Assembly (NCBI RefSeq): GCF_014205255.1
Contig: NZ_JACHNE010000001.1
Coordinates: 310,001-374,000, forward strand
Length of the DNA stretch: 64,000 nucleotides
Source: Streptomyces caelestis
GTDB taxonomy: Bacteria > Actinomycetota > Actinomycetes > Streptomycetales > Streptomycetaceae
Reading direction: 5' to 3'
Position numbers and translations under genes: made by a program. A model generated the notes under the pieces. That model saw only the letters and a list, made by a program, of their open reading frames with translations, was not told where the DNA came from and ran no database searches. The first letter of the stretch is position 1; every line of letters starts with the position of its first letter. Positions 11,735-48,695 of this stretch are shown in pieces.

Positions 11735-12282
11735 CAGATGCCGGTCTGCGGGCGCGGCTGGTGGGTGGGCCGCTGCGGGGTGCGTACCGGGAGGGTGCCG
11801 ATGGGGCGGGTGGGGCGGGCCGTGGCCGGGGGCGCCGCCGCGAGGTGTTCGGCGGGCGCGGGACGGTCGGCGGGCGCGGGACGGTCGGCGTGGCGGCCGG
11901 TGCCCGGTCCGACGTGCGTGGTCACCAGGTCCGCGATCCGGGCGCCGCTGCGCCGGCCCTCCAGGTGGAGGCGGCCGACATTGACGCGGTCCTCGGCCAG
12001 GAGGGTGAGGACGGCGGTCGCCCCGGCCGCGTAGGTGGCGACGTAGCCCCCGGAGCCGCGCACCAGCAGCTCGCGGAAGTCGCCGCGGGCGGCGGCGTCG
12101 GTCATGCGGTGGGCGACGCCGAGGGCGGCGGCGGTGAGCGCCGCGAGTCCCTCCGGTTCGGTGTCCGGGACGTCGTGGGCGAGGACGAGTCCGTCGACGG
12201 TGGCCGCGAGCGAACCGGTCAGCCGGGGTATGCGGGTGCGGAGCCGACGCAGTTCGTCGAGGACGTCGGTCTCGACGGCCAT
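11734..12282 (-). CDS. Roadblock/LC7 domain protein with proline-rich tail
   Basis: This 182-residue protein has an N-terminal Roadblock/LC7 domain: LRTRIPRLTGSLAATVDGLV, AAALGVAHRMTDAAARGDF and ELLVRGSGGYVATYAAG. After about residue 130 it becomes a disordered tail rich in Pro, Ala and Arg, with two copies of DRPAPA. The ATG at 12282 has AAAGGAG upstream. It follows the DUF4388 gene by 38 bp in a co-directional operon. No Ras-like GTPase is visible nearby, unlike conservon (cvn) loci where CvnB works with CvnD. Confidence 0.82.
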   Translation of the reverse strand: MAVETDVLDELRRLRTRIPRLTGSLAATVDGLVLAHDVPDTEPEGLAALTAAALGVAHRMTDAAARGDFRELLVRGSGGYVATYAAGATAVLTLLAEDRVNVGRLHLEGRRSGARIADLVTTHVGPGTGRHADRPAPADRPAPAEHLAAAPPATARPTRPIGTLPVRTPQRPTHQPRPQTGI

Positions 12283-12320
12283 GAGCAGTCTCCTTTCGGC
12301 ACGCTGTCGTCGCGCGCGGA

Positions 12321-13112
12321 TCACAGTGCCTCCAAGGCGTGCAGGAGCCGTCGCAGCAGTGCGGTGTCGGGCTCGTCCGGGACCGTGGGACGAGGGGCGG
12401 GGCCCGGCTCGGCGGACACGGGGGCGGGGGCGGGGTCCTTGGGGACGACCAGCCCGGCGGCGGCCAGGCGGCGCAGTTCGACGAGGGTGTGGAAGGTGCG
12501 GCAGGCGAGGACGGTGGCGATCTGTGCGGCGGTGCGGACGCCGTCGACCTGAGCGAGGGCGCGGCCGCGGCGGGCCGGCAGGTCCGCTGGGTCGGGGCCG
12601 GGCACACGGGCGAGCGGGGCGAGGTCGATGGCGGGTTCGGGACATATGCGGTGCAGCAGTTCACGGCGGCGTCTCGACTCGCGCAGGACGGTGTCCACCG
12701 GCACGGCACGGACGCCGCCGAGCCAGTGCGAGACTCCGGGGCGGAAGCGGAGCGCGGGTCCGTCGTGGGCGAGGACGAAGTACGCCGCGTCGAAGAGGGC
12801 GCCCAGGTGACACAGTTCCAGCGCGCCGACTGCGAGGTGGCCGCTGTCCACCAGCTGACGGCCGACGCGGCAACGGCGGCCGGCCTGGTCGATCGCCTCC
12901 CACCAGCCGTCCGGGGCGAGCGCGCCGCTGTGCGTGAGCAGATCGCCGATGTCGGGGGCGAGGGCGGACTCGACATGGACCACGTGTCCGGCGGCGAGGT
13001 AGACGATCCCCGCCTCGGTGGAAAGGGCGCCGCTCGCGCCCTGTGCGGCGAGGGTGCCGAGCAGGGCCGAGGCCGGTTCGTCCGTGCGTGCGGTGCGGGT
13101 CGGCGTGATCAT
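12321..13112 (-). CDS. DUF4388/PATAN-like domain protein
   Basis: This 263-residue protein begins MITPTRTARTDEPASALLGT. Its N-terminal half, ASGALSTEAGIVYLAAGHVVHVES followed by GDLLTHSGAL, resembles DUF4388 (PATAN) domains that occur with MglA/MglB-type regulators. The C-terminal half, AQVDGVRTAAQIATVLA then TLVELRRLAAAGLVV, looks like a small winged-helix-like region. The start overlaps the stop of the preceding gene by four bases (ATGA), so the two are translationally coupled. The family call is by eye. Confidence 0.65.
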   Translation of the reverse strand: MITPTRTARTDEPASALLGTLAAQGASGALSTEAGIVYLAAGHVVHVESALAPDIGDLLTHSGALAPDGWWEAIDQAGRRCRVGRQLVDSGHLAVGALELCHLGALFDAAYFVLAHDGPALRFRPGVSHWLGGVRAVPVDTVLRESRRRRELLHRICPEPAIDLAPLARVPGPDPADLPARRGRALAQVDGVRTAAQIATVLACRTFHTLVELRRLAAAGLVVPKDPAPAPVSAEPGPAPRPTVPDEPDTALLRRLLHALEAL

Positions 13113-13513
13113 CCGAGCACCAGTCGGTCCGCCATCTCGGCCAGCCGGATGCGGGCCAGGGCGAGGTTGCCCTCGCCGCGGTCGAGCCATAAGTGCAGGA
13201 ACACGGTGCTGTCGAAGGTCGTGGTGACGAACCTGAGCAGGTGGTACGAGTCGGTGTTCGTGATGATCAGGTCCTGCACGGGTGGTTCCTTGCTCAACGC
13301 TCCATCCGTGTCGCCACCGGCCGGGGCGAGCGCGCCGCTCTCCGCGGCGAGACGGGCGAGTTCGGCGGTCTCCGCGGCCGCCGCCTCCAGGTCGCCGCCC
13401 GGTGCGTCACCCACCGCGCCCAGGGCGAGACCGCTGATCCAGTCGACCACCGCCGCCCCTCGCGCACCGGGCAGCCGCATGGCCTCCAGCAGACTCTCGT
13501 CGATTCCGGGCAC
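13109..13513 (-). CDS. Roadblock/LC7-like protein (first of three)
   Basis: This 134-residue protein leads the operon. The GTG at 13513 has a strong GGGGAGGGG seven bases upstream, and gives MPGIDESLLEAMRLPGARGA. A more distant ATG at 13600 is less likely. The fold markers AAVVDWISGLALGAVG, LIITNTDSYHLLRFV and the C-terminal LALARIRLAEMADRLVLG parallel the protein at 11260-11634. The two are probably paralogues that pair as heterodimers. Confidence 0.78.
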   Translation of the reverse strand: MPGIDESLLEAMRLPGARGAAVVDWISGLALGAVGDAPGGDLEAAAAETAELARLAAESGALAPAGGDTDGALSKEPPVQDLIITNTDSYHLLRFVTTTFDSTVFLHLWLDRGEGNLALARIRLAEMADRLVLG

Positions 13514-35604: not shown

Positions 35605-36503
35605 GGCCATTTCGTTTGGATCAGACGGTCGTTGGTCCGGGTGTGCCGTTGACTGATGCGCAGTGGGCGCGGATCGAGCCGTTACTCCCGGACCGGACGC
35701 CGAAGCGGGGTGGCCGCTGGCGGGATCATCGTGAGGTGATCGACGCGATCGCCTTCAAGTTCCAGACCGGTACCCAGTGGGTGCACCCGCCGGAGAAGTA
35801 CGGCAACTGGCGAGGCGTCTACAACCGGCTGCGGATGTGGGCCGTCGACGGCACCTGGGAGCGGGTGTTCACCGCACTGGTCGCACACGCAGACGCCGAC
35901 GAAGACCTCAACTGGGCCGTCTCGGTCGACTCGACCATCGTGCGCGCACACCAGCACGCGGCCGGAGCCCGCAAAAAGGGGCCCCGGCCGGCGAGCCGGA
36001 CGATCACGCCATCGGCCGTTCCCGCAGCGGACTGACCGCGAAGATCCACCTCGCGGCCGATGGCCGGTGCCGACCACTGGCGTTCGTCCTCACCGCCGGC
36101 CAGGCCGGCGACGCACCCGCCTTCACGGACGTCATGTCCCGCCTGCGCGTTCCCCGCCCTTTTGAACGGCCCCGCACCAGGCCGGACCTGGTCCTGGGCG
36201 ACAAGGCGTACTCCTCCCGCGCGATCCGCGACCACCTGCGCAGACGCGGCATCCGCGCGGTGATTCCGGAACGCGCCGACCAGCAGGCCAACCGGCGGCA
36301 GCGCGGACAGGCGAGCGGCAGACCGCCGGCCTTCGACCGCGAGGCACACAAGCAACGCAACACCGTCGAGCGGTGCATCAACCGCCTGAAGCAGTGGCGC
36401 GGCACCGCCACCCGCTACGAGAAGACCACGACCATCTACCTCACCGGACTTCACATCGCGGGCACCTTCCTCTGGTCCACCCGCTGATCCAAACGAAACC
36501 GCC
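35605..36503 (+). mobile_element. Complete IS5-family (IS427-type) insertion sequence
   Basis: The 899-bp element has terminal inverted repeats GGCCATTTCGTTTGGATCAG and, at the right end reversed, GGCGGTTTCGTTTGGATCAG (two mismatches). It is flanked by TA at 35603-35604 and 36504-36505, the 2-bp duplication expected for the IS427 group. The target reads GCGC-TA-GCGC when the element is removed. The 295 bp to its left (35309-35604) hold no gene I can support. Confidence 0.93.
35643..36487 (+). CDS. IS5-type DDE transposase made by a -1 frameshift
   Basis: The first frame runs from the GTG at 35643 (VPLTDAQWARIEPLLPDR, ALVAHADADEDLNWAVSVDS with the first Asp) to a stop at 36035. The second frame continues homology from GRSRSGLTAKIHLAADGR through PDLVLGDKAYSSRAIR (second Asp) to RNTVERCINRLKQWRG (Glu) and a stop at 36487. 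The switch lies at CAAAAAGGGGCCCC near 35971, an A5G4 run typical of programmed frameshifting in this group. Both halves are intact, so the element may be active. Confidence 0.88.
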
Positions 36504-39500
36504 TAGCGCCGGTGGTTTCCGATGGTGACGACGCCCTTCGTCGTGGCGCCGGTCCTGTTGTCGTAGAGGACATCGCCGGTGGACTTGTTCCAGATCTTGA
36601 TGCGGAAGGTGTCCGGGCCGTCGGTGGCGGTGATTCTGAAGGCGTAGCCGCCCTTGCCGTCCATCGTGCCGGTGCCCTGGTAGACGGCCTGGGAGCCGTT
36701 GACCACGAGCCAGTCGGAGCCGGTCGAGCGGAAGGTGAGCCGGGCGGAGCCGAAGACGAACGTGGCCTTGCCGGTGGGGACGGTGGCTCCCTTCCGGTAC
36801 TGGGCGCCCAGGGTGAACGCCGCCTTTCCGGTCAGCCCCGGCCCGGCCGGGTAGGCACCGGCCGGCGAGGTGATCGTGCCGACGCCGGCAGCGGGGCCGG
36901 CGGCACGGTCGTAGACGATCAGCTCCGCGAGCGTGGTGCTGTCCGTGCCCTCGTCATCGTCGGTGACGGTGACGACCGGGCGGTGGATGCCCGCGTCGTC
37001 GTAGACGTGTGCGGCGCGGCAGCCGGAGTCGGTGACCGTGCCGGCCGTCGGCCGGCTGCCGTCCTTCCAGTCGACCTTGCAGGTGTGGCTGTCGGCCGAG
37101 CCCGGATCGTCGAAGGACGCCGTGACGACGGCGGCCTTGCCCGCCGGGACGGGCGAGCCGGGGCCCTCTGCGGAGGTGATCGACGGGGCGGCGTTGGAGA
37201 CCTTGACGGTCGCGGTGTCGGTGCCGCGTCCGCCGGTCAGGGTGACCTGGTAGGTGTCGTCGTCGGTGCAGGTGAGCGTCGTGCGGGCTGCTGCGGGGTT
37301 GGCGACGGCACACGGGGCGCCGTCCTGGACGGTCCACTTGGGGGTGCCGGCCCCGGAGACGGTGCCGGCCAGCGTGATCGTCTCGCCCTCGGTGCCGGTG
37401 ACGTCCGCACCGGCGTGGACGACGGTGACCGGGTCGATGCCGCCGAGGGTCGGGACGACCTTCTTGATCAGACCGTCGGAGTCGAACTCCAGCTTGTCGA
37501 TGGTGGTTTCGCGGTGGGTGCCGTCACCGCCGGGGATGGCGAAGCGGTGGTAGGCGATGTACCAGTCGTCGGTGTTCGGGACGTGGACGACGGAGTGGTG
37601 GCCCGGGCCCTTGATGCCCAGGGACAGGTCCTTCTCCAGGATCACGCCCTGCTTGGTCCAGGGGCCGGTGGGCGAGGGGCCGGTCGCGTAGGCGACGCGG
37701 TAGTTCTCGTCCCGGGTGTCGTTCTCCGACCACATGAAGTAGTAGGTGCCCTTGCGCTTGATGACGAAGGTGCCCTCGTTGTAGCCGCTCGGGGTGATGT
37801 CCGTGACCTTCGAGGTGTCGATGGAGGTCATGTCGTCGCCCAGCGGGACGACGTAGGCGCGGCCGTTGCCCCAGTAGAGGTACTTCGTGCCGTCGTCGTC
37901 GGTGAAGACCGCCGGGTCGATCATCTGGCCACGGAAGTCACCGGCCTTCAGCAGCGGCTTGCCCAGGGCGTCCTTGAACGGCCCGGTGGGCGAGTCGGAC
38001 ACCGCGACGCCGATGTTCGCGTCGGCGCAGAAGTAGAAGTAGTACTTCCCGTCCTTCTCGGTCATCGCCGGCGCCCAGGCCCGGCTGTCCGCCCAGCTGA
38101 CGTCCGGCCCCAGGTCGAGGATGACGCCGTGGTCCTTCCAGTGGACCAGGTCGGTGGAGGAGTAGGCCTTGAACCGCGTGCCGCTCCAGCCCTCGAAGCC
38201 GTCGGTCGTCGGGTAGATGTAGAAGGTGTCGCCGAAGCGAACGATGTCCGGGTCGGCGTTCAGCCCCGGCAGGACCGGTGTCTTCATGATCAGTGCCGTC
38301 ACGGTCCAGGTGCGCTTCGCACCGTCGGAGCCGGTCACCTCGTACGTCACGGGCTTGGTGAAGTCCTGCACGCTGCCGGAGGCGGGGCTGATCGACGCGC
38401 CATGGGCCAGACTGAACTCCGGTGCCAGCGCGGTGATGTCCGTGCCCGCCTTCAGCGGCAGGGTGACCCTGCTGCCGGCGTCGTCGACGAGTGCGTCGAC
38501 CTTCAGCGCCGGGTGCGTCACCTTGGCGATGCCCGTCGTGTTGCCGCTGAGCTCCTGGACCTCCGCGGGCGACAGGGCCCGGTCGTAGACGCGGAAGTCG
38601 TCGACCTCGCCGCCGAAGTACGGGTCCGCCCCGTACAGCGACCTGCCGATGTAGCCGCTGTAGTCCTTGTTCGCGTCGTACAGATCGGCCGGCTTGATGC
38701 CGACGCCGGTCGCGCGGGCCGCCTCGAAGCCTTCGACGTACAGGACCATCGTGCCGGTCGAGCCGTCGAGGGTCACGGTGACGTGCCGCCACTGCCCCGG
38801 CGTGAGCTGCGAGCCGGCCGTCAGCTTCGACTCCCCCGACCAACTGGCCTTGGTGATCGCGGAGTACAGCTTGGAGCTGCCGTTGGACGGTGTGGCGAAG
38901 AGGTACTTGTCGCTGTCCGGGCCGATCCCGAACAGCCACTGGAACCCGTCGCCGCCCTTCCACTTGGCGTACGTCGACACGGTCACGCTGTCGGCGTTCT
39001 TCAGCACGCCGTTCGGGATCTTCACGTACGGAGAGGCGGTGGAGCTGCCGGAACCGCCGGACATCCTGAACGAGCCGCCGTGCACGCCGCTGCCGAAGTC
39101 GGGGGTGCGGACGTACGTACCGTGGTGGCCGTGCCCACTGGAGTCACGGGCGATGCTGCCGCTCGTCTCGTCGAAGTCGTAGTGCAGGAGCAGATCGGTT
39201 GGGACGTCGGAGCCCTCCTGCGACACGGTGACCTCGGCCCGGACCGCAGTCGCGGCGCCGTTGGGCAGGCTGCCGGTCACGGTGAAAGTGCCAGGCTGTG
39301 CGTACGACGCCGCCGGTACGTCCGCCCAGTCGACGGAGACCGGCCGCTTGACGCCGTCGGCGTACTCGGCGACGACCGTGGCCGGCAGGACCGGGGCGAC
39401 GCCGACCCGCGTCTTCACCGACACGTCCTCGACGCTCTTCACGAGCTGGTCGGGTTGGTACGCGCGCAGCAGCCGGTCGTACTCGGCCTGGGTGACCGGC

Positions 39501-41734
39501 AGCACGGTGCCGTGGCGGGGCTTGGCGGGCAGGTCGTAGCCGGTGGAGGGGGTCCAGGTGCCGGAGTCGAGGTCGGTCGTCTCGAACGGGATGTAGCCGC
39601 GGCCGCCGAACTCGTCGAGGAACGCGTACCACTTCTCCTCGGTGTTGGACTTGAACACCAGCGGTCCCTCGGCGGCGTTCATCGCGCCCTTGCCGATGCC
39701 CTCGGCGACGGCGGCCCAGGACGGGTTCAGGATCGAGTCGCTCTTCTCCTGGAAGATGAACTTGCTGTTGGGGGTGGAGGAGGTGTTGTTCCGCTCGTCC
39801 TTGGACAGGCGGTAGTACGTCCCGTCGTGCCGGATCATCGTGGAGTCGATGACCGAGTAGCCGCGGTCGATCCAGACCTTGGGCTCGCTGAAGGTGTGGA
39901 AGTCGCGGGTGGTGGCGTACATCATGCGGTTGTACGTGTCGCCGGAGTGGTCGGCGTTGTCGTACAGCTTCGACGCCCAGAAGACGACGTACTCGCCGCG
40001 CTCGGCGTCGTAGAAGGCTTCCGGTGCCCAGGTGTTGCCGGCGCTGTCGGGTGAGACCTTGACCAGGCGCTGGTTCGTCCAGTGCACCAGGTCGGTGGAC
40101 TCCCAGACCATGATGGACTTGCTGCCGGTGCGCTGGGAGGCGTCCCAGTCGCCGTTGCCGTAGATCCTGAGGTCGGTGGCGATCTGGTAGAACTTGTCGC
40201 CCTCCGGGGAGCGGATGATGAACGGGTCGCGCAGGCCCTTCTCGCCGAGGGTCGAGGTGAGAACCGGCTTGCCGTCGTTCAGCTCGCGCCAGTGCAGCGG
40301 GTCGTTGCCCTTGCTGAGGGCGGCGTAGAGCTGTTCGCCGTCCGAGGTGCCCTCGCCGGTGAAGTAGCTGAACATGTAGCCCTTGAGAGCCGCCTTGACA
40401 GGCAGTTCGGGCACCTTGGCCGTCATGACGCGCGTGGCCTCGGCCTCGCCCTTGGTGACGGTGGCGGTCAGCTCGACGGTGGTGGCGCCGTCGCCGTGCG
40501 CGGGGCGGTGGACCTCGCCGTCGGCGGAGACGACGTCCGGCTTCGCGGAGGACCAGGTCACGGTCGTGCCGAAGGCGCCGCTCTTGGGCAGGGTGAGGTT
40601 GCCGCGTGCGTCGTCGAGATTGTGGACCGTGAGCGCCTCGGCGGCCTGCCGGGTGGCGGCGTCGTCGTCGAGCGCGGGCCGGACCGTGACGTCGAAGGTC
40701 TTGGTGCCGGTCACGGTGCCCTTCGTCAAGGTCGCCGTGAGCGTGGCGCGGCCGTCCGGTGAGCCTGCCTCGGGACGGGTCACCTTGCCGGTGTCCGACA
40801 CCACGGACGGATTGTCGCTGTCCCAGCTGATGGAGGAGCCGCCGGCCGTGCCGGTCTTCGGCAGATCCAGGTCGGAGGTGACGCCGCTGGTGTCACCGAG
40901 GCTGAGGGCCTCCTCGTCGTCGGCGACGCCCTGCGTGGCGACGGGGAGGGAGAGCTGCTCGACCTCCGAGCCGGCCAGTGCCCGGTCGTATACACGGAAG
41001 TCGCGTATCCGGCCCTTGAAGAGCTTGTCGCCGTCGTAGACGGACTTGCCGATGTAGTTGGCCTTGGTGGTGCCGGAGCCGATGGCACCGGGCGTGGTGG
41101 TGACCGAGGTGTTGCGGCCGACCTCGACGCCGTCCTCGTAGAGCAGACCTGTGGAGCCGGTCTGGGTGTAGGTGAGGTGCTTCCACACTCCGCGGGTCAG
41201 GTTGTGGGAGTCGGACGGCTTGGTGGTCTGCTCGGTCGACCAGTTGCCCGTCGCGACGGAGGTACGGAAGGAGTTGCCGGTGGTGAACAGGTAGCCGTTG
41301 CCGTTGCCCGCGCTGGTGTTGCCGAAGCCGTAGAGGAAGTAGGGCGTGCTCTGGGCGGAGTCGATCAGTACGTCCATGGAGACCGTGATCGAGTCCATGC
41401 CCCTCATGACGTCGTCCGGCGCCTTGATGTAGGTGTCCGACCCGTTGAAGGCGAGCCCCTGGCCGGATGCCGACCAGTCGGCGGTGCCGCTGACCGTGCC
41501 GTTCCGGCCGTTGCCGGAGGCGTCGGTGACGGTGCCGCCGGAGCCTGCGTCGAGCTTGTACCACAGGGCCAGGCCGTCGGTGATGTCCGCGGCTCCGGCC
41601 GCCGGTGCCGCCTGTGCGGGAGCGACGGGTCCGGCGAGGGTGAGCAGCACCGACGCGGCGGTCAGTCCGGCGAGATGGCCCGCCCAACGTCTCGCGCGGC
41701 AGTGGAGGCGTGCGAATCGTGCGACGTGCGTCAT
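36503..41734 (-). CDS. Giant secreted enzyme with two GH43 domains, LamG domains and Ig/PKD modules
   Basis: This 1743-residue exported protein has a signal peptide ending APAQA-APAAG near residue 42. In order come a LamG-like domain (about 50-260), two atrophied Ig-like modules, and a first GH43 five-blade propeller with LRDPFII (base Asp), VIDSTMIR and AAEGPLVF (acid Glu). A Big_4-like Ig module and a second LamG domain (about 845-1050) follow. The second GH43 domain has NADPDIVRFGDTFYIYPTTD, MIDPAVFTDDDG and YNEGTFVIKR. A PKD-like module and a post-COAP-type beta domain close it. It probably attacks arabinan- or xylan-type polysaccharides outside the cell. Its TAG stop overlaps the insertion site of the IS. 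Confidence 0.92.
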   Translation of the reverse strand: MTHVARFARLHCRARRWAGHLAGLTAASVLLTLAGPVAPAQAAPAAGAADITDGLALWYKLDAGSGGTVTDASGNGRNGTVSGTADWSASGQGLAFNGSDTYIKAPDDVMRGMDSITVSMDVLIDSAQSTPYFLYGFGNTSAGNGNGYLFTTGNSFRTSVATGNWSTEQTTKPSDSHNLTRGVWKHLTYTQTGSTGLLYEDGVEVGRNTSVTTTPGAIGSGTTKANYIGKSVYDGDKLFKGRIRDFRVYDRALAGSEVEQLSLPVATQGVADDEEALSLGDTSGVTSDLDLPKTGTAGGSSISWDSDNPSVVSDTGKVTRPEAGSPDGRATLTATLTKGTVTGTKTFDVTVRPALDDDAATRQAAEALTVHNLDDARGNLTLPKSGAFGTTVTWSSAKPDVVSADGEVHRPAHGDGATTVELTATVTKGEAEATRVMTAKVPELPVKAALKGYMFSYFTGEGTSDGEQLYAALSKGNDPLHWRELNDGKPVLTSTLGEKGLRDPFIIRSPEGDKFYQIATDLRIYGNGDWDASQRTGSKSIMVWESTDLVHWTNQRLVKVSPDSAGNTWAPEAFYDAERGEYVVFWASKLYDNADHSGDTYNRMMYATTRDFHTFSEPKVWIDRGYSVIDSTMIRHDGTYYRLSKDERNNTSSTPNSKFIFQEKSDSILNPSWAAVAEGIGKGAMNAAEGPLVFKSNTEEKWYAFLDEFGGRGYIPFETTDLDSGTWTPSTGYDLPAKPRHGTVLPVTQAEYDRLLRAYQPDQLVKSVEDVSVKTRVGVAPVLPATVVAEYADGVKRPVSVDWADVPAASYAQPGTFTVTGSLPNGAATAVRAEVTVSQEGSDVPTDLLLHYDFDETSGSIARDSSGHGHHGTYVRTPDFGSGVHGGSFRMSGGSGSSTASPYVKIPNGVLKNADSVTVSTYAKWKGGDGFQWLFGIGPDSDKYLFATPSNGSSKLYSAITKASWSGESKLTAGSQLTPGQWRHVTVTLDGSTGTMVLYVEGFEAARATGVGIKPADLYDANKDYSGYIGRSLYGADPYFGGEVDDFRVYDRALSPAEVQELSGNTTGIAKVTHPALKVDALVDDAGSRVTLPLKAGTDITALAPEFSLAHGASISPASGSVQDFTKPVTYEVTGSDGAKRTWTVTALIMKTPVLPGLNADPDIVRFGDTFYIYPTTDGFEGWSGTRFKAYSSTDLVHWKDHGVILDLGPDVSWADSRAWAPAMTEKDGKYYFYFCADANIGVAVSDSPTGPFKDALGKPLLKAGDFRGQMIDPAVFTDDDGTKYLYWGNGRAYVVPLGDDMTSIDTSKVTDITPSGYNEGTFVIKRKGTYYFMWSENDTRDENYRVAYATGPSPTGPWTKQGVILEKDLSLGIKGPGHHSVVHVPNTDDWYIAYHRFAIPGGDGTHRETTIDKLEFDSDGLIKKVVPTLGGIDPVTVVHAGADVTGTEGETITLAGTVSGAGTPKWTVQDGAPCAVANPAAARTTLTCTDDDTYQVTLTGGRGTDTATVKVSNAAPSITSAEGPGSPVPAGKAAVVTASFDDPGSADSHTCKVDWKDGSRPTAGTVTDSGCRAAHVYDDAGIHRPVVTVTDDDEGTDSTTLAELIVYDRAAGPAAGVGTITSPAGAYPAGPGLTGKAAFTLGAQYRKGATVPTGKATFVFGSARLTFRSTGSDWLVVNGSQAVYQGTGTMDGKGGYAFRITATDGPDTFRIKIWNKSTGDVLYDNRTGATTKGVVTIGNHRR

Positions 41735-41895
41735 GTCGAGGTTCCCTGCTGAGGCATGGCCATGGGCGGACAAGGCGGAACGGAAAGACGAGAGGTCGAC
41801 GAGGCGAGGGCACGTCCTTGCCGCGGGCCTGCCGTTACACGCAGGTAACGTGTGTTGCGAGAGTCTCATTCGACGTCCCGGGCAGCGTCAATAGG

Positions 41896-41925
41896 TTCCG
41901 AACAATGTCCGACAGGCCGAACAAT
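41896..41925 (-). promoter_or_regulatory. Direct repeats upstream of the GH43 gene
   Basis: ATTGTTCGG occurs twice (minus strand), 10 bp apart, about 165-190 bp ahead of the GH43 start. It is a candidate site for a carbohydrate-responsive regulator. Confidence 0.35.
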
Positions 41926-42071
41926 CCGCACGGCTCGTGGTGGTCTACGGGGGCGTCGGCGACGCGCTGATCGTCCTGCGCAGCAACGGGCCCGAGGCGG
42001 CCTTTTACGGCATCCACGGAGCCACCGCCGTGGTGGTGCCGGCGATCAGCGTGCTCCTGCTCGTCGCGTAA
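41919..42071 (+). pseudogene. C-terminal fragment of a small membrane protein
   Basis: The frame reads VVYGGVGDALIVLRSNGPEA then FYGIHGATAVVVPAISVLLL and stops at 42071. It looks like the last two hydrophobic helices of a DUF4267-type membrane protein whose 5' part is missing. No start with a ribosome site exists. Confidence 0.35.
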
Positions 42072-42231
42072 CCGCTTGGCATGCCGCACGCGCCGGACGC
42101 AGGCCGTGATCACGGCGTTCCGCTCGGGCTCGCGTTACGCCGGGCGGGCGACTTAAGCATATTTTCTCGCCTTTTGCTCCACCTATGAGCAGGGAACGCC
42201 GAATCAGCTCGACCAGCAGGAGAGCGTGCCC

Positions 42232-45231
42232 ATGACCGGGACAGCAGACCCGCACCAGAACCCCTCGCGCGCCCTGCCCGACTGCGCGGTCGAGCCGATC
42301 GCCGGCATCCTGGCCGAATTCGTGGACGAGCGCATGGGGCAGCGGATCGCCCAGGGCCAGGACCCGGTTCTGCGGCCGGTCTTCGTCAAGTACCACGGCA
42401 CCGCCCGGGGGGTGCTCACGGTCACCCCCGGCCTCCCGCAGGACCTCTGTATCGGATTCCTCAGGGCCGCCCGGGACCAGCCGGGCGGTCTGACCGCCTG
42501 GGTCCGCTTCTCCAGCGACACCCTGCCGGACCGTCCGGACTTCCGCCGGACCCTCGGTATGGGCATCAAGCTGTTCGGCGTTCCCGGCCCGAAGCTGCTG
42601 GAGGACGAGGGCCACGCGGACACACAGGATCTCGTGCTGCAGAACCACGAGGTGTTCTTCGTCGACACCGCCCGGGACATGTGCGAGTTCCAGCAGGACC
42701 CGGTCGCCTACCAGAACGCGCACCCGGTGACCCGCAGCATTCTGCAAGCCATGCGCAAGCCCGAGGAGAGCGCGCTGACGGCCGGCTACTGGGGCGTGCT
42801 GCCATACGCGTTCGGGCCCGACCGCCATGTGAAGTACGTGCTCGTGCCGGTCTCCTGCCCACCCGGTGACCCGCAGGCGGTGCCCCCGGAGGAGGACCCC
42901 TCCTTCCTGCGGGAAGACCTGCGGCACCGGCTGGCCGCGGGTGAGGCGACCTTCGACCTGATGGTGCAGTTCCGCACGGACCCGGACCGGATGCCCCTGG
43001 ACCGTGCCACCGTGCGCTGGGAGGAATCCCTGAGCCCCCCGGTCCGGGTGGCGAGACTGACCCTGCATCAGCAGGACGTCCGGGCGCGCGGCCAGGACGC
43101 CTACGGCGAGAACCTGGCCTACAACCCCTGGCACAGCCTGGCCGAGCACCAGCCGGTCGGCAGCATGGCCGAGGCCCGCAAGGTGGTGTACCGGGCGTCG
43201 GCCGCACGGCGCCGCGACGCGAACGGCGTTCCGGTGGCGGAACCGGGTCCCGCCCGGCCGCCGTCCCGTGAACCCCTCGGGCGTGACACCCGGATCGTGC
43301 GGGCCGCGATCCATCCCGCCATCGGAGTGGCGCGGGTCGGTGACAGCGCGGACGAGTTCTTCCTCGCGCCCGAGGTGGACGACCCTCCGCCGCTGCCCGC
43401 CGGCTCGTACAAGGACGCGACCGGCGCCCTGAAGCGGCAGGCGGCGCGCTTCCGTGTCTACGGCTACAACGCCGCCGGAGAGCCGGTCGCCGAGCTGACC
43501 GCGGACAACGCGGACATCCGGTGGACCGTGCAGGTGGCCAACAAGAAGGCTGCCTGGTACCAGTTCCAGCTGGCCCTGGACATCCCGGAAGCGGCCGCCG
43601 CACCCGCCAGCACGCCCCGCAACCCCAAGGTGCCCGCCGAGGAGCGTGGCCGGCTGGTCATCGACCCCGGTCCCCGTTCGATCCGCGGCCGGGAACGCGG
43701 GGGCCGGCCCGAGTACCGGTTCGACACGGGCTGCTTCCTCGGAAAGCCCGTTCCTCTCGGTGAGGTGCGCACGGACGGCGCCGGTCGGCTGCTGTTCCTC
43801 GGCGGGCACGGCGTCTCGGCCTCGGTGGATCACGCTCAGGCCATGCACTTCGCCAACAACGACGGCTGGCATGACGACGTCTCCGACGGCCCGGTGACCG
43901 CCCGCGTGCGCGTCGACGGCCGTTCCGTGCCCGTCGAACCGGCCTGGGTGGTGGTGGCGCCACCGAACTTCGCGCCGGAGCTGAAGTCCGTACGCACGAT
44001 GTACGACCTGCTGCGCGACCTCTTCGTGTCCTGCGGAACGCTGCCGCCCCCGGAGGGCGTCTCGTTCACCCGTGACGTCCTGCCGATCCTGCGGCGCATG
44101 TGCGATCTCCAGTGGGTCAATCGCGGCATCGCCGCGTTGTTCGGGCACGGCGGGCGCGAGCACTTCCTGGCGCCCGGACGGCTCGCCAGGCTGGCCGACC
44201 CCGGGCCCCGCAACGCGGAGCTGCGGCAGCAGATCTGGGCCACCATGCGGGATCTCGACCGTGACGGGCTCTCGCCCGTACCGTGGCCGCCGCTCTACGG
44301 CGACTCGATGAGCGTGCGGCCGGTCTCCGCGCGGCAGCACCTGACGCTGTCTTCGCTGCAGTACCGGTCCCTGGCCCGGTGGGCCGCAGGGGACTTCGAC
44401 GCCGACTACGACCCTTCGGCGGTACCGCCCGCGAACCTCGACGAGGTCCCACTGGCGCAACGGCCGGGCATGCTCGACCGCGCGGCCCTGTCGTTCTGTC
44501 TGGCCGACGCGTTCCACCCGGGCTGCGAACTGTCCTGGCCGATGCGCCACAGCACGCTGTACTCGGCACCCTTCCGGGTGCGCCACCGCGATCCCGGCAC
44601 CGCCGAATCCGACTACGGCCAGGTGCTGACTCCGCAGACGGCCCTCGGCGTCGACGGCCCGCTGTACGCGCAGGGACCGGGCGACCTCACGCGCTGGATG
44701 GCGGTGCCCTGGCAGACCGACACCGCCCGCTGCCGCTCCGGCTACTACCTCGGGTACGGCCCTCGCTACGACCCCTACCTGCCCACCTTCTGGCCCGCGC
44801 GCGTACCCAACCACGTGCTGACGGAGCAGGACTACAAGAAGGCGATCGACCCCGGCAGCCCCGCAGAGGAACGCCGGGCCGCCTTCGAGCGCCGAGCCGT
44901 GTGGGACAGGTGGCTGCCCCCGGACCGCATCGAGCAGATGAACGCCATGGTCAAGGACTTCGGCAAACTGGGCCTCGTCGAACGCCGCGCAGGCGCCGCC
45001 GACGACCCGGAGCTGCCCGCGACGATGTTCGTCGAGTCCACCGTGGGCTTCCACCCCGAGCAGCCTCCGCCCGCGCTGCGGAACCTGCAATGCCTGCACG
45101 TGCCGGAGGCAGCGGACCCGGCACTGGACGGCAGCGCCGTGGCCGCGGCCCTCGCCCGGACGGACGTGCCCCACGAACAGGTCATGGCGGGCTACTTCGA
45201 GAAGGTCGCACGCTTCCCGGACGAGCGGTGA
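42232..45231 (+). CDS. Catalase-like domain fused to a LodA-like quinone-dependent amine oxidase
   Basis: This 999-residue fusion has no signal peptide. Residues about 25-325 are a heme-catalase-like domain of the y4iL kind: VKYHGTARGVL places a distal His at 55, DLVLQNHEVFF the companion Asn at 138, and SMAEARKVVY a possible proximal Tyr at 320. Residues about 355-999 are LodA/GoxA-like (IVRAAIHPAIGVARVGDS, GDLTRWMAVPWQTD). LodA enzymes use cysteine tryptophylquinone to oxidise amino groups, releasing H2O2. Candidate cofactor residues are Cys756 or Cys765 and Trp822 or Trp827. The ATG at 42232 has AGGAG nine bases upstream. The next gene is its probable maturase. Confidence 0.87.
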   Translation: MTGTADPHQNPSRALPDCAVEPIAGILAEFVDERMGQRIAQGQDPVLRPVFVKYHGTARGVLTVTPGLPQDLCIGFLRAARDQPGGLTAWVRFSSDTLPDRPDFRRTLGMGIKLFGVPGPKLLEDEGHADTQDLVLQNHEVFFVDTARDMCEFQQDPVAYQNAHPVTRSILQAMRKPEESALTAGYWGVLPYAFGPDRHVKYVLVPVSCPPGDPQAVPPEEDPSFLREDLRHRLAAGEATFDLMVQFRTDPDRMPLDRATVRWEESLSPPVRVARLTLHQQDVRARGQDAYGENLAYNPWHSLAEHQPVGSMAEARKVVYRASAARRRDANGVPVAEPGPARPPSREPLGRDTRIVRAAIHPAIGVARVGDSADEFFLAPEVDDPPPLPAGSYKDATGALKRQAARFRVYGYNAAGEPVAELTADNADIRWTVQVANKKAAWYQFQLALDIPEAAAAPASTPRNPKVPAEERGRLVIDPGPRSIRGRERGGRPEYRFDTGCFLGKPVPLGEVRTDGAGRLLFLGGHGVSASVDHAQAMHFANNDGWHDDVSDGPVTARVRVDGRSVPVEPAWVVVAPPNFAPELKSVRTMYDLLRDLFVSCGTLPPPEGVSFTRDVLPILRRMCDLQWVNRGIAALFGHGGREHFLAPGRLARLADPGPRNAELRQQIWATMRDLDRDGLSPVPWPPLYGDSMSVRPVSARQHLTLSSLQYRSLARWAAGDFDADYDPSAVPPANLDEVPLAQRPGMLDRAALSFCLADAFHPGCELSWPMRHSTLYSAPFRVRHRDPGTAESDYGQVLTPQTALGVDGPLYAQGPGDLTRWMAVPWQTDTARCRSGYYLGYGPRYDPYLPTFWPARVPNHVLTEQDYKKAIDPGSPAEERRAAFERRAVWDRWLPPDRIEQMNAMVKDFGKLGLVERRAGAADDPELPATMFVESTVGFHPEQPPPALRNLQCLHVPEAADPALDGSAVAAALARTDVPHEQVMAGYFEKVARFPDER

Positions 45232-45246
45232 CCTACGAGGTGAACG

Positions 45247-46371
45247 GTGACCTACGAAGTGATCGTGGCCGGAGGCGGTCCGGCAGGCGCCGTCGCGGCC
45301 CTGGTCCTGGCGCGGGCCGGGCGTCGTGTCCTGCTCGTCGACAAGAGCACGGACGGTCCCCGGTCCTCCCCTTTCCGGATCGGGGAGACCCTGCCACCCG
45401 CAGCCAGGCCGCTGCTGCACGATCTGGGCCTGTGGCCCGAGTTCGCCGCGGCCCCTCACCTGCGGTGCGTGGGAACCTACGCCTCCTGGGGGTCGGAGAC
45501 ACTCCACGGCCACAGCCACCTCCACGACCCGCACGGACACGGCTGGCACCTGGACCGGACCCGGTTCGACGCGTTTCTGCGGAGCGCCGCCGAAAGGGCG
45601 GGGGCCGAACTGCGCCGGGCCGAAGCCGTGCCGCACCCCACCCCCGCCGGTGACCGACGCGTACTGATCCGCGAAGGCGGCCGGCTCCAAGAGGTGCGCT
45701 GCGACTGGGTCGTGGACGCCACCGGCCGCCGCGCCGTGATCGGCCGCCGGCAGGGCCGACGCCACAAGCAGGACAGGCTCGTCGCCGTGTACGCCCTGTT
45801 CGGACGACGGCTCCCCGGTCATCACACCGAGGACACCGAACTCCGCACGCTCGTCGAGGCGGTGCCCGGCGGCTGGTGGTACACGGGCCGGGTTCCGGCC
45901 GGACGACTGGTCGCACACCTCACCGACACGGACCTGACCGACTCCTCCCTGCGCACCGTCGAAGGGTTCCTCGGCGCCCTCGGGACCACCCGCCACATCC
46001 GCACCCGCCTCGACGGCTACGACCCGGCCCACGCCGCGGCACCCCGCTGGACCCCCGCCCACGGGCTGCGTCTGTCCCCCGCGGCGGGTCCCGGATGGAT
46101 CGCCACCGGAGACGCCGCCCTCGCGGTCGACCCGCTCTCCTCACAGGGCATCCTCAACGCCCTCCACACCGGAGCCCGCGCCGGCCGGACCGTCGACCGG
46201 TGCCTGTCCGGCGAGACGGCCGCCCTCGCGGAGTACTCCCTGTTCCTGGAGGGGATCACGGACATTTACGAGCGACATCACGCCGAGACCTACGGCCAGG
46301 AACAGCGCTGGCCGGGTCACACGTTCTGGGAACGCCGCCGACGGCCACGGCACAGGCGCCCCCAGCCGTGA
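45247..46371 (+). CDS. LodB-like FAD-dependent oxidoreductase
   Basis: This 374-residue flavoprotein begins MTYEVIVAGGGPAGAVAALV, a Rossmann FAD-binding fold, followed by PFRIGETLPPAARPLL as in halogenase/geranylgeranyl-reductase relatives. The second FAD motif is ATGDAALAVDPLSSQGILNA. LodB flavoproteins are required to build the cysteine tryptophylquinone of LodA enzymes, and this gene follows the LodA-like fusion by 15 bp. The GTG at 45247 sits in a short duplication: GGTGACCTACGA occurs at both the preceding stop codon and this start. Confidence 0.87.
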   Translation: MTYEVIVAGGGPAGAVAALVLARAGRRVLLVDKSTDGPRSSPFRIGETLPPAARPLLHDLGLWPEFAAAPHLRCVGTYASWGSETLHGHSHLHDPHGHGWHLDRTRFDAFLRSAAERAGAELRRAEAVPHPTPAGDRRVLIREGGRLQEVRCDWVVDATGRRAVIGRRQGRRHKQDRLVAVYALFGRRLPGHHTEDTELRTLVEAVPGGWWYTGRVPAGRLVAHLTDTDLTDSSLRTVEGFLGALGTTRHIRTRLDGYDPAHAAAPRWTPAHGLRLSPAAGPGWIATGDAALAVDPLSSQGILNALHTGARAGRTVDRCLSGETAALAEYSLFLEGITDIYERHHAETYGQEQRWPGHTFWERRRRPRHRRPQP

Positions 46372-46425
46372 CCCGCGGTCCGGCCTGCGCTTCATCCGAG
46401 GGCCCACCGCTGATAGGGGCCGCCG

Positions 46426-47034
46426 TTACAGGTCTACAGGACTACTGGGTGTGCCGTTGGCGGTTCCGGCGTTGTACGCGTCCAGGCACAGGCCGGACCG
46501 GGCGCTGATGATGGTGCCGTTCGCGTTGACGCTCCAGCGTTGGTTCGTGCCGTTGGTCTGCGATGTGTTCGGCACGTCCAGCGAGCGGTCGGAGCCGGAA
46601 CCGACGGTCGGCGCGCCGCTCGGCGGAGGGGGCGTCTGGCCAGGTGGCGCGCAGGGGCACTTGCTCCGGTACCGGGAGATGCCGCTGGAGTCCGCCCGGG
46701 ACGGGCCCAGAAGTCGGGTGTAGCGCGTGTGGTGGTCGATGAAGATCTTGAGCCAGGGGATCATGCGGCGCGTCACGGCCGAGTTCCCGCACGTGGGGAA
46801 GCCGCCGCCGCCGTTGGTGAGCTCGGCGAAGGCGCTCTGCCTGCCGGCCGGCATGGGCGCGTAGAGGCCGTCGAGGTAGGACGGAGTGACGGTGCCGGCG
46901 TCCCGCGCACTGATGATCATCGTCCGAACTCGAAGGGTGGGCAGGTCCTGTGAGGGAGAGAACGGCGCGAGCGGAACGGCGGCCTTCAGGGACGGCCGCC
47001 GTCCGGCCGCGCTGATCGCGCCGCCGCCGCCCAC
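46426..47034 (-). pseudogene. C-terminal half of a cutinase/polyester hydrolase with degenerate ricin-B lectin tail
   Basis: From GGGGAISAAGRRPSLKAAVP onward the frame follows the second half of Streptomyces cutinase-like lipases (RVRTMIISARDAGTV, MPAGRQSAFAEL, MIPWLKIFIDHHTRYTRLL, GISRYRSKCP). The serine of the nucleophile elbow would lie just before the break. The usual catalytic His region (GASHFFPTS) reads GGGGFPTCGN, so His is lost. After a proline linker comes a ricin-B piece (RSLDVPNTSQTNG, TNQRWSVNANGTIISARSGL) with an internal deletion, ending TANGTPSSPVDL. It is non-functional. Confidence 0.78.
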
Positions 47035-47417
47035 GGCCGTCCGCAGCCCGACCAGCCTGCGCCCAGGACGGGGTCTTGCCCGGCCGGGGTCGGCCTCACC
47101 GGGCACCGACTCTGGCCGCCACTTGACCACATCGCCGTGTGCAGATGAAGAAGCTGGGATGCGGGGGCTGGTTACAGGCCGTGTTCTGCCAGGCCAGGGC
47201 CGTGCGGTACGTGCGTCGGTCATGACGACCTCCGGTGTGGGGGTGGGTGAACCCAGTGCGGATACTGTCGGATCTGCTGTTGGCCATGTTCGGATTCGGC
47301 GGGAGATAGGTCGCCGAGCAGCAAAAACGGTGAGCCGACCGGTTGTTGCTTGTTAGCGTCGGTCAGGGCGGCGGCACAACGGCGCCGCCCGTCACCCCGC
47401 GTTGACCGAAGGACACC
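47035..47417. other. Intergenic region
   Basis: I see no supported gene. It should contain the promoter of the aminotransferase at 47418. Confidence 0.5.
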
Positions 47418-48695
47418 ATGACAACCATTGCTCACCGTGACGCCGACGCCCTCGCCTTACACCTGGACGAGGCGCGTCGTGACTACGCCGGCCTCAAGGA
47501 CCGCGGTCTCTCACTGGACCTGACCAGGGGCAAGCCCTCACCCGAGCAGCTCGACCTGTCCGCTGAACTGCTCACGTTGCCCGGCGGGCGCTACACGGCA
47601 CTGGACGGCACCGACTGCCGCAACTACGGCGCCCCGGGTGACGGGCTGCGGGAGCTGCGTGACATCTTCGCCCCCGCCCTCCAGGTGCCCGTCGACCAGC
47701 TGCTGGCGGTCGGCAACTCGAGCCTCGAGCTCATGCACGACTGCCTGGTGCACGCCCTCCTCGGCACTGTGCCCGGGGCCGAGGGCCGCTGGGCCGATCA
47801 ACGGGTGGCCTTTCTCTGTCCGGTGCCCGGCTACGACCGGCACTTCGCCCTGTGTGAACGCTTGGGCATCGACATGATCCCCGTCCCGATGACCGACGGC
47901 GGACCGGACATGGGTGTCGTCGAGAACCTCGTGCGCTCCGACGCGAGGATCAAGGGCATCTGGTGCGTGCCCAAGTACAGCAACCCCGACGGCACCTGCT
48001 ACAGCGACGAGACCGTGCGCCGGCTGTCCACCATGGAGACGGCCGCGCCGGACTTCAGGATCTTCTGGGACAACGCCTACGCGGTGCACCACCTCGACGG
48101 CGAGACGGGCGTCGGCGACATCCTCGCCGCATGCGCGGAGGCCGGCCACCCGGACCGGGTGTTCGTGTTCGGCTCCACCTCGAAGATCACTTTCGCCGGG
48201 GCAGGGGTCGCTTTCCTCGGCTCTTCTCCCGCGAACGTCGCCTGGTGGCGTGCCAACTCGACCAAGCGGACGATCGGCCCGGACAAGCTCAACCAGCTCC
48301 GCCACGCGCTCTTCCTCAAGGACACCGACGGGCTGCGCGCTCACATGCGCCGCCACCGACGGATCCTGGCGCCGAAGTTCGAGACGGTGGACCGCGTCTT
48401 CAGCGAGCAGCTCGGCGACACCGGGCTCGCCACGTGGACGCGGCCGAAGGGCGGTTACTTCGTCGCGCTCACGGTCCTCGACGGCTGTGCCCGTGAAGTG
48501 GTCCGCCTGGCCGCCGAGGCCGGCATCGCCGTCACCCCGGCCGGGGCCACGCACCCCCACGGCAACGATCCGGACGACCGGGTCATCCGCATCGGCCCCT
48601 CCTATCCGACACTCGAGGAGCTGGAGCAGATCGCCTACGGCATCACGGTGTGCGTGCGACTCGCCGGCTACGAGAGGCTGACCGCCCAGCGCTGA
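47418..48695 (+). CDS. Aspartate aminotransferase, subgroup Ic (PF12897 type)
   Basis: This 425-residue PLP enzyme begins MTTIAHRDADALALHLDEAR and has LDLTRGKPSPEQLDLS, YGAPGDGLRELRDIFAPALQ, KYSNPDGTCYSDETVRRL and DNAYAVHHLDGE. The PLP lysine is in FGSTSKITFAGAGVAFLG. These match actinobacterial aspartate aminotransferases of the Corynebacterium AspT type, which are longer than and distinct from AspC. It interconverts aspartate/2-oxoglutarate and oxaloacetate/glutamate. A GC-rich hairpin follows the stop. Confidence 0.9.
   Translation: MTTIAHRDADALALHLDEARRDYAGLKDRGLSLDLTRGKPSPEQLDLSAELLTLPGGRYTALDGTDCRNYGAPGDGLRELRDIFAPALQVPVDQLLAVGNSSLELMHDCLVHALLGTVPGAEGRWADQRVAFLCPVPGYDRHFALCERLGIDMIPVPMTDGGPDMGVVENLVRSDARIKGIWCVPKYSNPDGTCYSDETVRRLSTMETAAPDFRIFWDNAYAVHHLDGETGVGDILAACAEAGHPDRVFVFGSTSKITFAGAGVAFLGSSPANVAWWRANSTKRTIGPDKLNQLRHALFLKDTDGLRAHMRRHRRILAPKFETVDRVFSEQLGDTGLATWTRPKGGYFVALTVLDGCAREVVRLAAEAGIAVTPAGATHPHGNDPDDRVIRIGPSYPTLEELEQIAYGITVCVRLAGYERLTAQR

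Follow-up and report, generated by a model that had tools for sequence, protein, structure and literature searches.

A catalase-fold domain with phenylalanine in place of the distal histidine, fused to a predicted LodA/GoxA-family quinone oxidase in Streptomyces caelestis

The stretch of DNA considered here, called the window throughout, is 64,000 nucleotides long and comes from Streptomyces caelestis (contig NZ_JACHNE010000001.1, positions 310,001 to 374,000). One of its genes encodes a 999-aa protein in which an N-terminal catalase-fold domain is fused to a C-terminal LodA/GoxA-type oxidase, with a flavoprotein gene directly behind it. The C-terminal half is predicted to be a cysteine tryptophylquinone (CTQ) oxidase of the LodA/GoxA family, making H2O2 from an amine, and the N-terminal domain is very probably not an ordinary catalase. 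Because the distal His is replaced by Phe (Phe53), the peroxide would probably be spent in another reaction and not simply destroyed; our tentative preference, short of a settled view, is for a heme domain that would use the peroxide in peroxidase- or peroxygenase-type chemistry instead of dismuting it. This alternative role is far less firm than the statement that the domain is not an ordinary catalase. The residues themselves, the change at Phe53 and Asp98, and the lasting pairing with LodA, fused or split, are observed directly. The initial annotation had proposed a catalase-like domain joined to a LodA-like oxidase with its maturase; the quinone-oxidase half, the maturase-type neighbor and the catalase fold hold up, and the assignment of the distal His does not.

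The reading frame of the fusion runs from 42226 or 42232 to 45231 (+), and the flavoprotein frame, 45247-46371 (+), begins 15 bp later. The ATG at 42232 is the better start, preferred over the GTG at 42226 because GGAGAG ends 7 bases upstream of it and homologues such as P0001 start at the same Met. Residue numbers are counted from the GTG at 42226, and positions in the initial annotation equal these minus 2. The features of the gene and its N-terminal domain are:

42232..45231, + strand: fusion gene, N-terminal catalase-fold domain and C-terminal LodA/GoxA-type oxidase, 999 aa (open reading frame, start region, Pfam, fold)
42232..43260, + strand: catalase-fold domain, about residues 3-345, boundary approximate
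42382..42384, + strand: Phe53, at the distal-His position of catalases (codon TTC; alignment; counts over relatives and loci)
42394..42396, + strand: His57, conserved, outside the distal-His column (80 of 80 loci; 229 of 230 covered relatives)
42517..42519, + strand: Asp98, aligned with the Val of RFSTV in catalases, a main-channel position (alignment; counts over relatives)
42643..42645, + strand: Asn140, candidate distal Asn, register uncertain by one residue (79 of 80 loci)
43177..43191, + strand: Arg318-xxx-Tyr322, proximal heme-ligand motif (alignment; Arg in 79 of 80 loci, Tyr in 79 of 80)

Structure prediction and a structural search give the N-terminal domain a catalase fold. The Pfam Catalase model, PF00199, has no match in the window protein at E up to 0.1; precomputed PF00199 matches exist for a few relatives (P0201, P0230 and P0237), and none of P0136, P0172, P0208 or the split-gene catalases of L071 and L025 reaches its cut-off. 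Conservation was assessed in two collections. The relatives are P0001-P0120 (120 of 2201 found) and P0121-P0240 (120 of 393, with a LodA neighbor checked for part of the set only), beside a sister family, P0241-P0360 (120 of 5323), whose named members are nearly all Acinetobacter. The loci are the best 80 of 129 relatives from a contig scan with a catalase-domain alignment made of the window's domain and 22 database proteins picked for length and contig size.

The distal-His column holds Phe in 230 of 230 covered relatives (of 240 listed) and in 80 of 80 loci, and His in all 120 listed sisters. Phe53 formed part of no retrieval pattern; the patterns used for the 80 loci held the SSD and QN..FFVD motifs, so that the invariance of Asp98, Gln139 and Asn140 there is partly circular. 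The LodA-linked family has the motif R-x-x-F-x-[K/R]-x-H-G, and R-x-x-H is found in 10 of 13 other catalase-fold rows of the alignment, including the host's two catalases, and in three Acinetobacter sister rows. The remaining three of the 13 (L084, L087 and L088) belong to a separate catalase-fold family from Streptomyces genomes that reads RAGNTKT, with Asn at the distal-His position in all three; a further three matches in the same score class (L085, L086 and L089) lie outside the alignment. PMC9687031 describes the distal His of ordinary catalases as essential and as their acid-base catalyst.

The initial annotation had taken a retained His of the heme site (its His55, His57 here) for the distal one. 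The ungapped alignment and the structural register rule this out and put Phe53 there; His57 is the second His, because sister rows reading RDAHPKAHG have His at both places. For the E. coli HPII chains listed in the structural search with the domain, the alignment sets in at model residues 42-47, and the offset of 75 places His128, which we take to be the distal His of HPII, on residue 53. Such matches give the first aligned residue only; the HPII offset is 74 or 75 with the full-length model, and the human offset 21 or 22 with the domain.

The second change is at residue 98. This column holds Asp in 234 and Glu in one of 235 covered relatives, and Ala in all 120 listed sisters. The catalase residue aligned with it, the last-residue Val of RFSTV, is presumably human Val116. 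According to PMC8773446, Val116 was invariably conserved in the catalases investigated earlier and helps to form the main channel at its narrowest point; Val116Ala raised the peroxidatic activity of yeast catalase A. It is possible that Asp98 serves as a replacement acid-base group.

The remaining heme-site residues resemble those of catalases. The annotated Asn138 (Asn140 here, with the register uncertainty already given) and possible axial Tyr320 (Tyr322) are indeed kept, each in 79 of 80 loci. Arg318 and Tyr322 align with RLFAY and RTFSY of the host's own catalases, which makes Tyr322 the likely heme ligand of the domain. Exceptions among covered relatives are few: Asn140 is absent in 5 of 237, Tyr322 in 1 of 232, Arg318 in 1 of 233 and His57 in 1 of 230. 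The Cys ligand in a PCP motif that marks heme-thiolate peroxygenases (UPO/CPO) was not found, the aligned proximal ligand being Tyr322. Cys153 had been considered as a replaced channel Phe; this was dropped, as the register is uncertain by one residue and Cys153 is present in 64 of 80 loci only. The Tyr322 exception among the loci is L070 (Streptomyces sp. CB02009, 7716-8996), in which an in-frame internal deletion has taken out LodA together with the last part of the catalase domain and has left the maturase gene in place.

The C-terminal half and the downstream gene carry the following features:

43312..43956, + strand: LodA_N domain (Pfam)
44302..44778, + strand: LodA_C domain (Pfam)
44719..44721, + strand: Asp832, aligned with GoxA Asp678 (76 of 76 loci with a letter there)
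44731..44733, + strand: Cys836, cofactor Cys, aligned with LodA Cys516 and GoxA Cys682 (76 of 76 loci with a letter there)
44791..44793, + strand: Trp856, cofactor Trp, aligned with GoxA Trp697 (76 of 76 loci with a letter there)
45247..46371, + strand: GoxB/LodB-type flavoprotein, predicted CTQ maturase (GoxB 254.6 bits, LodB 178.1 bits; homologue in 77 of 80 loci)

The LodA-like assignment of this half stands: LodA_N scores 290.8 bits (cut-off 26.3) and LodA_C 131.8 bits (cut-off 25), and the cofactor residues Cys836 and Trp856, present in the alignment with LodA and GoxA, are invariant in 46 of 46 rows of an alignment (A1) that takes in 45 of the 120 relatives in the first listing. The protein scores under both equivalog cut-offs (437.8 bits against a curated 750 for GoxA, NF038173; 204.3 bits against 600 for the LodA lysine 6-oxidase, NF038172). 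The residue set Phe542/His764/Asp832 is GoxA-like. Neither of the two family members with solved structures, Pseudoalteromonas luteoviolacea GoxA (6byw, among others) and Marinomonas mediterranea LodA (2ymw), has the N-terminal catalase domain of the window protein. The annotated LodB-like gene is likewise borne out, GoxB and LodB being the closest models, both below their cut-offs. In the full-length model (mdaf8435060ff), the predicted local distance difference test (pLDDT) is below 50 at 677-705 and at 832-859. The second of these stretches contains both cofactor residues, and a possible reason is that the model omits the crosslinked cofactor.

The pairing of the two domains is persistent. 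In the 80 loci, the catalase-like domain is fused to LodA in 69 (counting L045, whose gene spans two overlapping frames), has a gene of its own directly before lodA, in the same orientation, in 10, and is without LodA in one. The split loci occur in Paraflavitalea, two Flavobacterium, Flavipsychrobacter, Pedobacter, Chitinophaga, Rudanella, Herpetosiphon, Moorena and a Mycobacterium; the two open reading frames lie at most 243 bases apart, and all of these loci keep the order catalase-lodA-lodB. A maturase homologue scoring above 60 bits is present in 77 loci; the contigs of the other three (L024, L033 and L036) stop inside LodA or shortly past it. In quick trees of either domain from 75 loci (L024, L033, L044, L045 and L070 omitted; the LodA tree bears a long-branch warning), the split/fused label needs four changes, of which starred branches force three in the catalase-domain tree and four in the LodA tree. 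The distances of the two domains correlate, with a Mantel r of 0.73 (1000 permutations gave at most 0.12), and of 0.87 for the split loci alone (n = 10). Such repeated fission or fusion, about four changes with adjacency kept, argues for a joint function of the catalase-like domain and LodA.

The association was also examined from the LodA side. Among 246 Streptomyces genomes, LodA_N is found in 22 and this catalase subfamily (above 400 bits) in five, four of them with an adjoining LodA_N; the fifth, G161, has no LodA_N match and looks like the same genome as L070, because coordinates and frame length match. Two other phyla (398 and 395 genomes) yielded 25 LodA_N genes in 22 genomes. Ten of the 25 genes carry the catalase-like domain (nine fused, one split), all ten with Phe53, Asp98 and Tyr322, and 15 show no catalase domain within the roughly 3.7 kb examined. 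When the three genes of the center genomes G246 and G247, picked for holding the module, are left aside, the count is 8 of 22, with the three residues in 8 of 8. The host genome (8.94 Mb, one contig) has a single LodA_N match. It also encodes two ordinary catalases, which score 627 and 555 bits against PF00199, so that H2O2 could be scavenged there by proteins other than the fusion.

The sequence of events that we tentatively prefer would be as follows. The downstream flavoprotein would complete the Cys836-Trp856 cofactor, as its likeness to LodB/GoxB suggests. The quinone would then oxidize a small primary amine or amino acid, a substrate class suggested by the GoxA-like set Phe542/His764/Asp832, and its reoxidation by O2 would give H2O2, which would pass to the neighboring heme domain. 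There, without the distal His, acid-base aid to O-O cleavage might come from Asp98, from His57 or from the substrate, and the resulting oxidant might attack a second substrate, perhaps, more speculatively, the amine's own product. An electron transfer from quinone to heme, as in quinohemoprotein amine dehydrogenase, was also considered and judged unlikely, since a Tyr-ligated heme has a low potential.

Several points weigh against the use of peroxide on a second substrate. For every family member the heme, the quinone and the activity are predictions. The proximity of Asp98 to the iron is presumed, and His57 is equally conserved and could serve instead. The full-length model has a predicted template modeling (pTM) score of 0.64 and pLDDT below 50 at 832-859, the site of the cofactor residues, and so does not fix how the two halves lie relative to each other. 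Among the neighbor open reading frames of the 80 loci, none stood out as a conserved gene for a second substrate: no family among these 793 frames is common to more than seven loci, and the seven-locus group appears by eye to be a mix of response-regulator-type paralogues. The channel precedent is a Val-to-Ala and not a Val-to-Asp change, and a similar change in HPII lowered activity (PMC8773446). The coral enzyme that provides the best precedent retains its distal His (PMC5617202).

The initial annotation had left two ideas side by side, a self-detoxifying oxidase and a heme domain that uses the peroxide; the latter fits better, and the former is weakened, since every LodA-linked relative examined has Phe in place of the distal His. 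A working catalase clearing the H2O2 produced beside it, protecting the quinone and the cell, would agree with the predicted catalase fold, with the retained proximal Arg/Tyr and candidate distal Asn, and with the lasting attachment to an H2O2-making family. It is nevertheless rather unlikely, given that the residue held essential for catalases (PMC9687031) is replaced throughout, that the host already owns two ordinary catalases and that at L066 a separate, His-keeping mini-catalase follows the maturase gene. Loss of catalysis is also unlikely. The domain would then be a scaffold, a heme-binding sensor or a turnover-free peroxide sink that helps LodA to fold, assemble or be regulated; the missing distal His is consistent with this, and the Asn of L084, L087 and L088 indicates that the fold tolerates loss of the His, but a near-invariant heme-ligand motif and a clade-specific Asp98 are not expected of a merely structural domain.

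A role in maturation, in which the heme domain would use peroxide to help oxidize Trp856 during cofactor formation in the manner of MauG, is quite improbable. To our knowledge, LodA and GoxA need no heme partner, and the 15 of 25 sampled LodA_N genes without a nearby catalase domain speak against a general need for one. What favors it is the fixed catalase-lodA-lodB order in split loci, together with reports that MauG is a heme protein maturing a tryptophylquinone and that LodB/GoxB act on a Trp already mono-hydroxylated; the same source, however, names LodA and GoxA with the flavoprotein as modifying enzyme (PMC7876137).

The architecture itself is not new. Catalase-domain fusions, with matches to y4iL-like proteins (cd08152), are tabulated in group III of the LodA-like proteins (PMC4417212, Table 3), and share architecture and length with the window protein; one of them, the 999-aa STAFG_1983 of Streptomyces afghaniensis, is our locus L072. 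The initial annotation knew of no characterized protein of this architecture, and the authors of that table knew of no characterized group III protein (PMC4417212). The same paper states that the y4iL-like proteins have the fold of catalases and bind heme as these do, and need not have catalase activity. The active-site analysis of the catalase part and the split gene pairs are additions to what the consulted portions of that paper contain. No later paper on the catalase-LodA architecture was found among the matches listed in the open-access literature, a search that leaves subscription papers outside and does not prove absence, and a search for catalase-fold proteins without the distal His gave one unrelated match.

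Three known systems offer partial parallels. The 33-kDa catalase-related protein of Mycobacterium avium subsp. paratuberculosis (3e4w/3e4y) is unfused and reads RALHAKG, with the distal His, in contrast to the RxxFxKxHG of the LodA-linked family. In the coral allene oxide synthase-lipoxygenase (1u5u, 3dy5), a catalase-fold domain uses the peroxide of its fused partner, as proposed here, but with Thr66-His67-Asn137 retained, a lipid hydroperoxide as substrate and a lipoxygenase as partner (PMC5617202). In UPO/CPO a distal Glu works with Arg or His, and the likeness to Asp98 is limited to acid-base action by a distal carboxylate (PMC6417270).

Peroxygenases and peroxidases depend on a metered supply of H2O2, a compound that oxidases give off. 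If the preferred reading is correct, a single natural chain that makes and spends H2O2 would be a biocatalyst that feeds itself, and its heme site would differ from those of catalases and fungal peroxygenases. If the domain is inert, the name 'catalase' that databases sometimes give to this conserved group is wrong in many phyla. In both cases, the Phe53/Asp98 change narrows a loose catalase-like label to a precise experimental question. The broadest version of the proposal would be a new heme catalyst on the catalase fold, found in ten or so bacterial phyla, with a tyrosinate heme, a distal Phe, and Asp98 standing in for the His and replacing the channel Val, supplied with H2O2 by a quinone oxidase of the same chain or operon for a peroxygenase or peroxidase step on a second substrate; as a whole we regard it as doubtful.

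Several related loci have further features. At L064 (4815-7790) and L080 (3314-6238), a second protein (992 and 975 aa, respectively) is encoded just upstream of the catalase-LodA fusion and joins a catalase-like domain with distal His to a heme peroxidase of the animal type (PF03098, E about 1e-97); several Streptomyces genomes also have catalase-like frames about as long. The L066 mini-catalase (12212-13381, Acinetobacter higginsii), which reads RDAHPKAHG, has an N-terminus that is lipoprotein-like by eye. In L097, from another Streptomyces genome (G009), LodA_N of a close fusion copy is broken across two reading frames.

Finally, we note some features of the window itself. The closest named homologues of the fusion protein are from Streptomyces, at 92% identity (among the matches listed, the best 120 of 2201). 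A scan of 41800-47500 for promoters and terminators detected nothing. At the junction of the fusion and maturase genes, an imperfect 19-bp tandem duplication (45228-45265, 17 of 19 identical) surrounds the maturase start codon. Downstream, the frame at 46429-47223 (-) may be a gene remnant: its match to a PETase-like hydrolase is confined to the C-terminal half (profile positions 126-263 of 263), and a partial ricin-type lectin comes after it. Upstream, 36503-41869 (-) encodes a 1788-aa multidomain protein with two GH43 and two laminin-G-like stretches, Big/aBig domains and a PKD domain.

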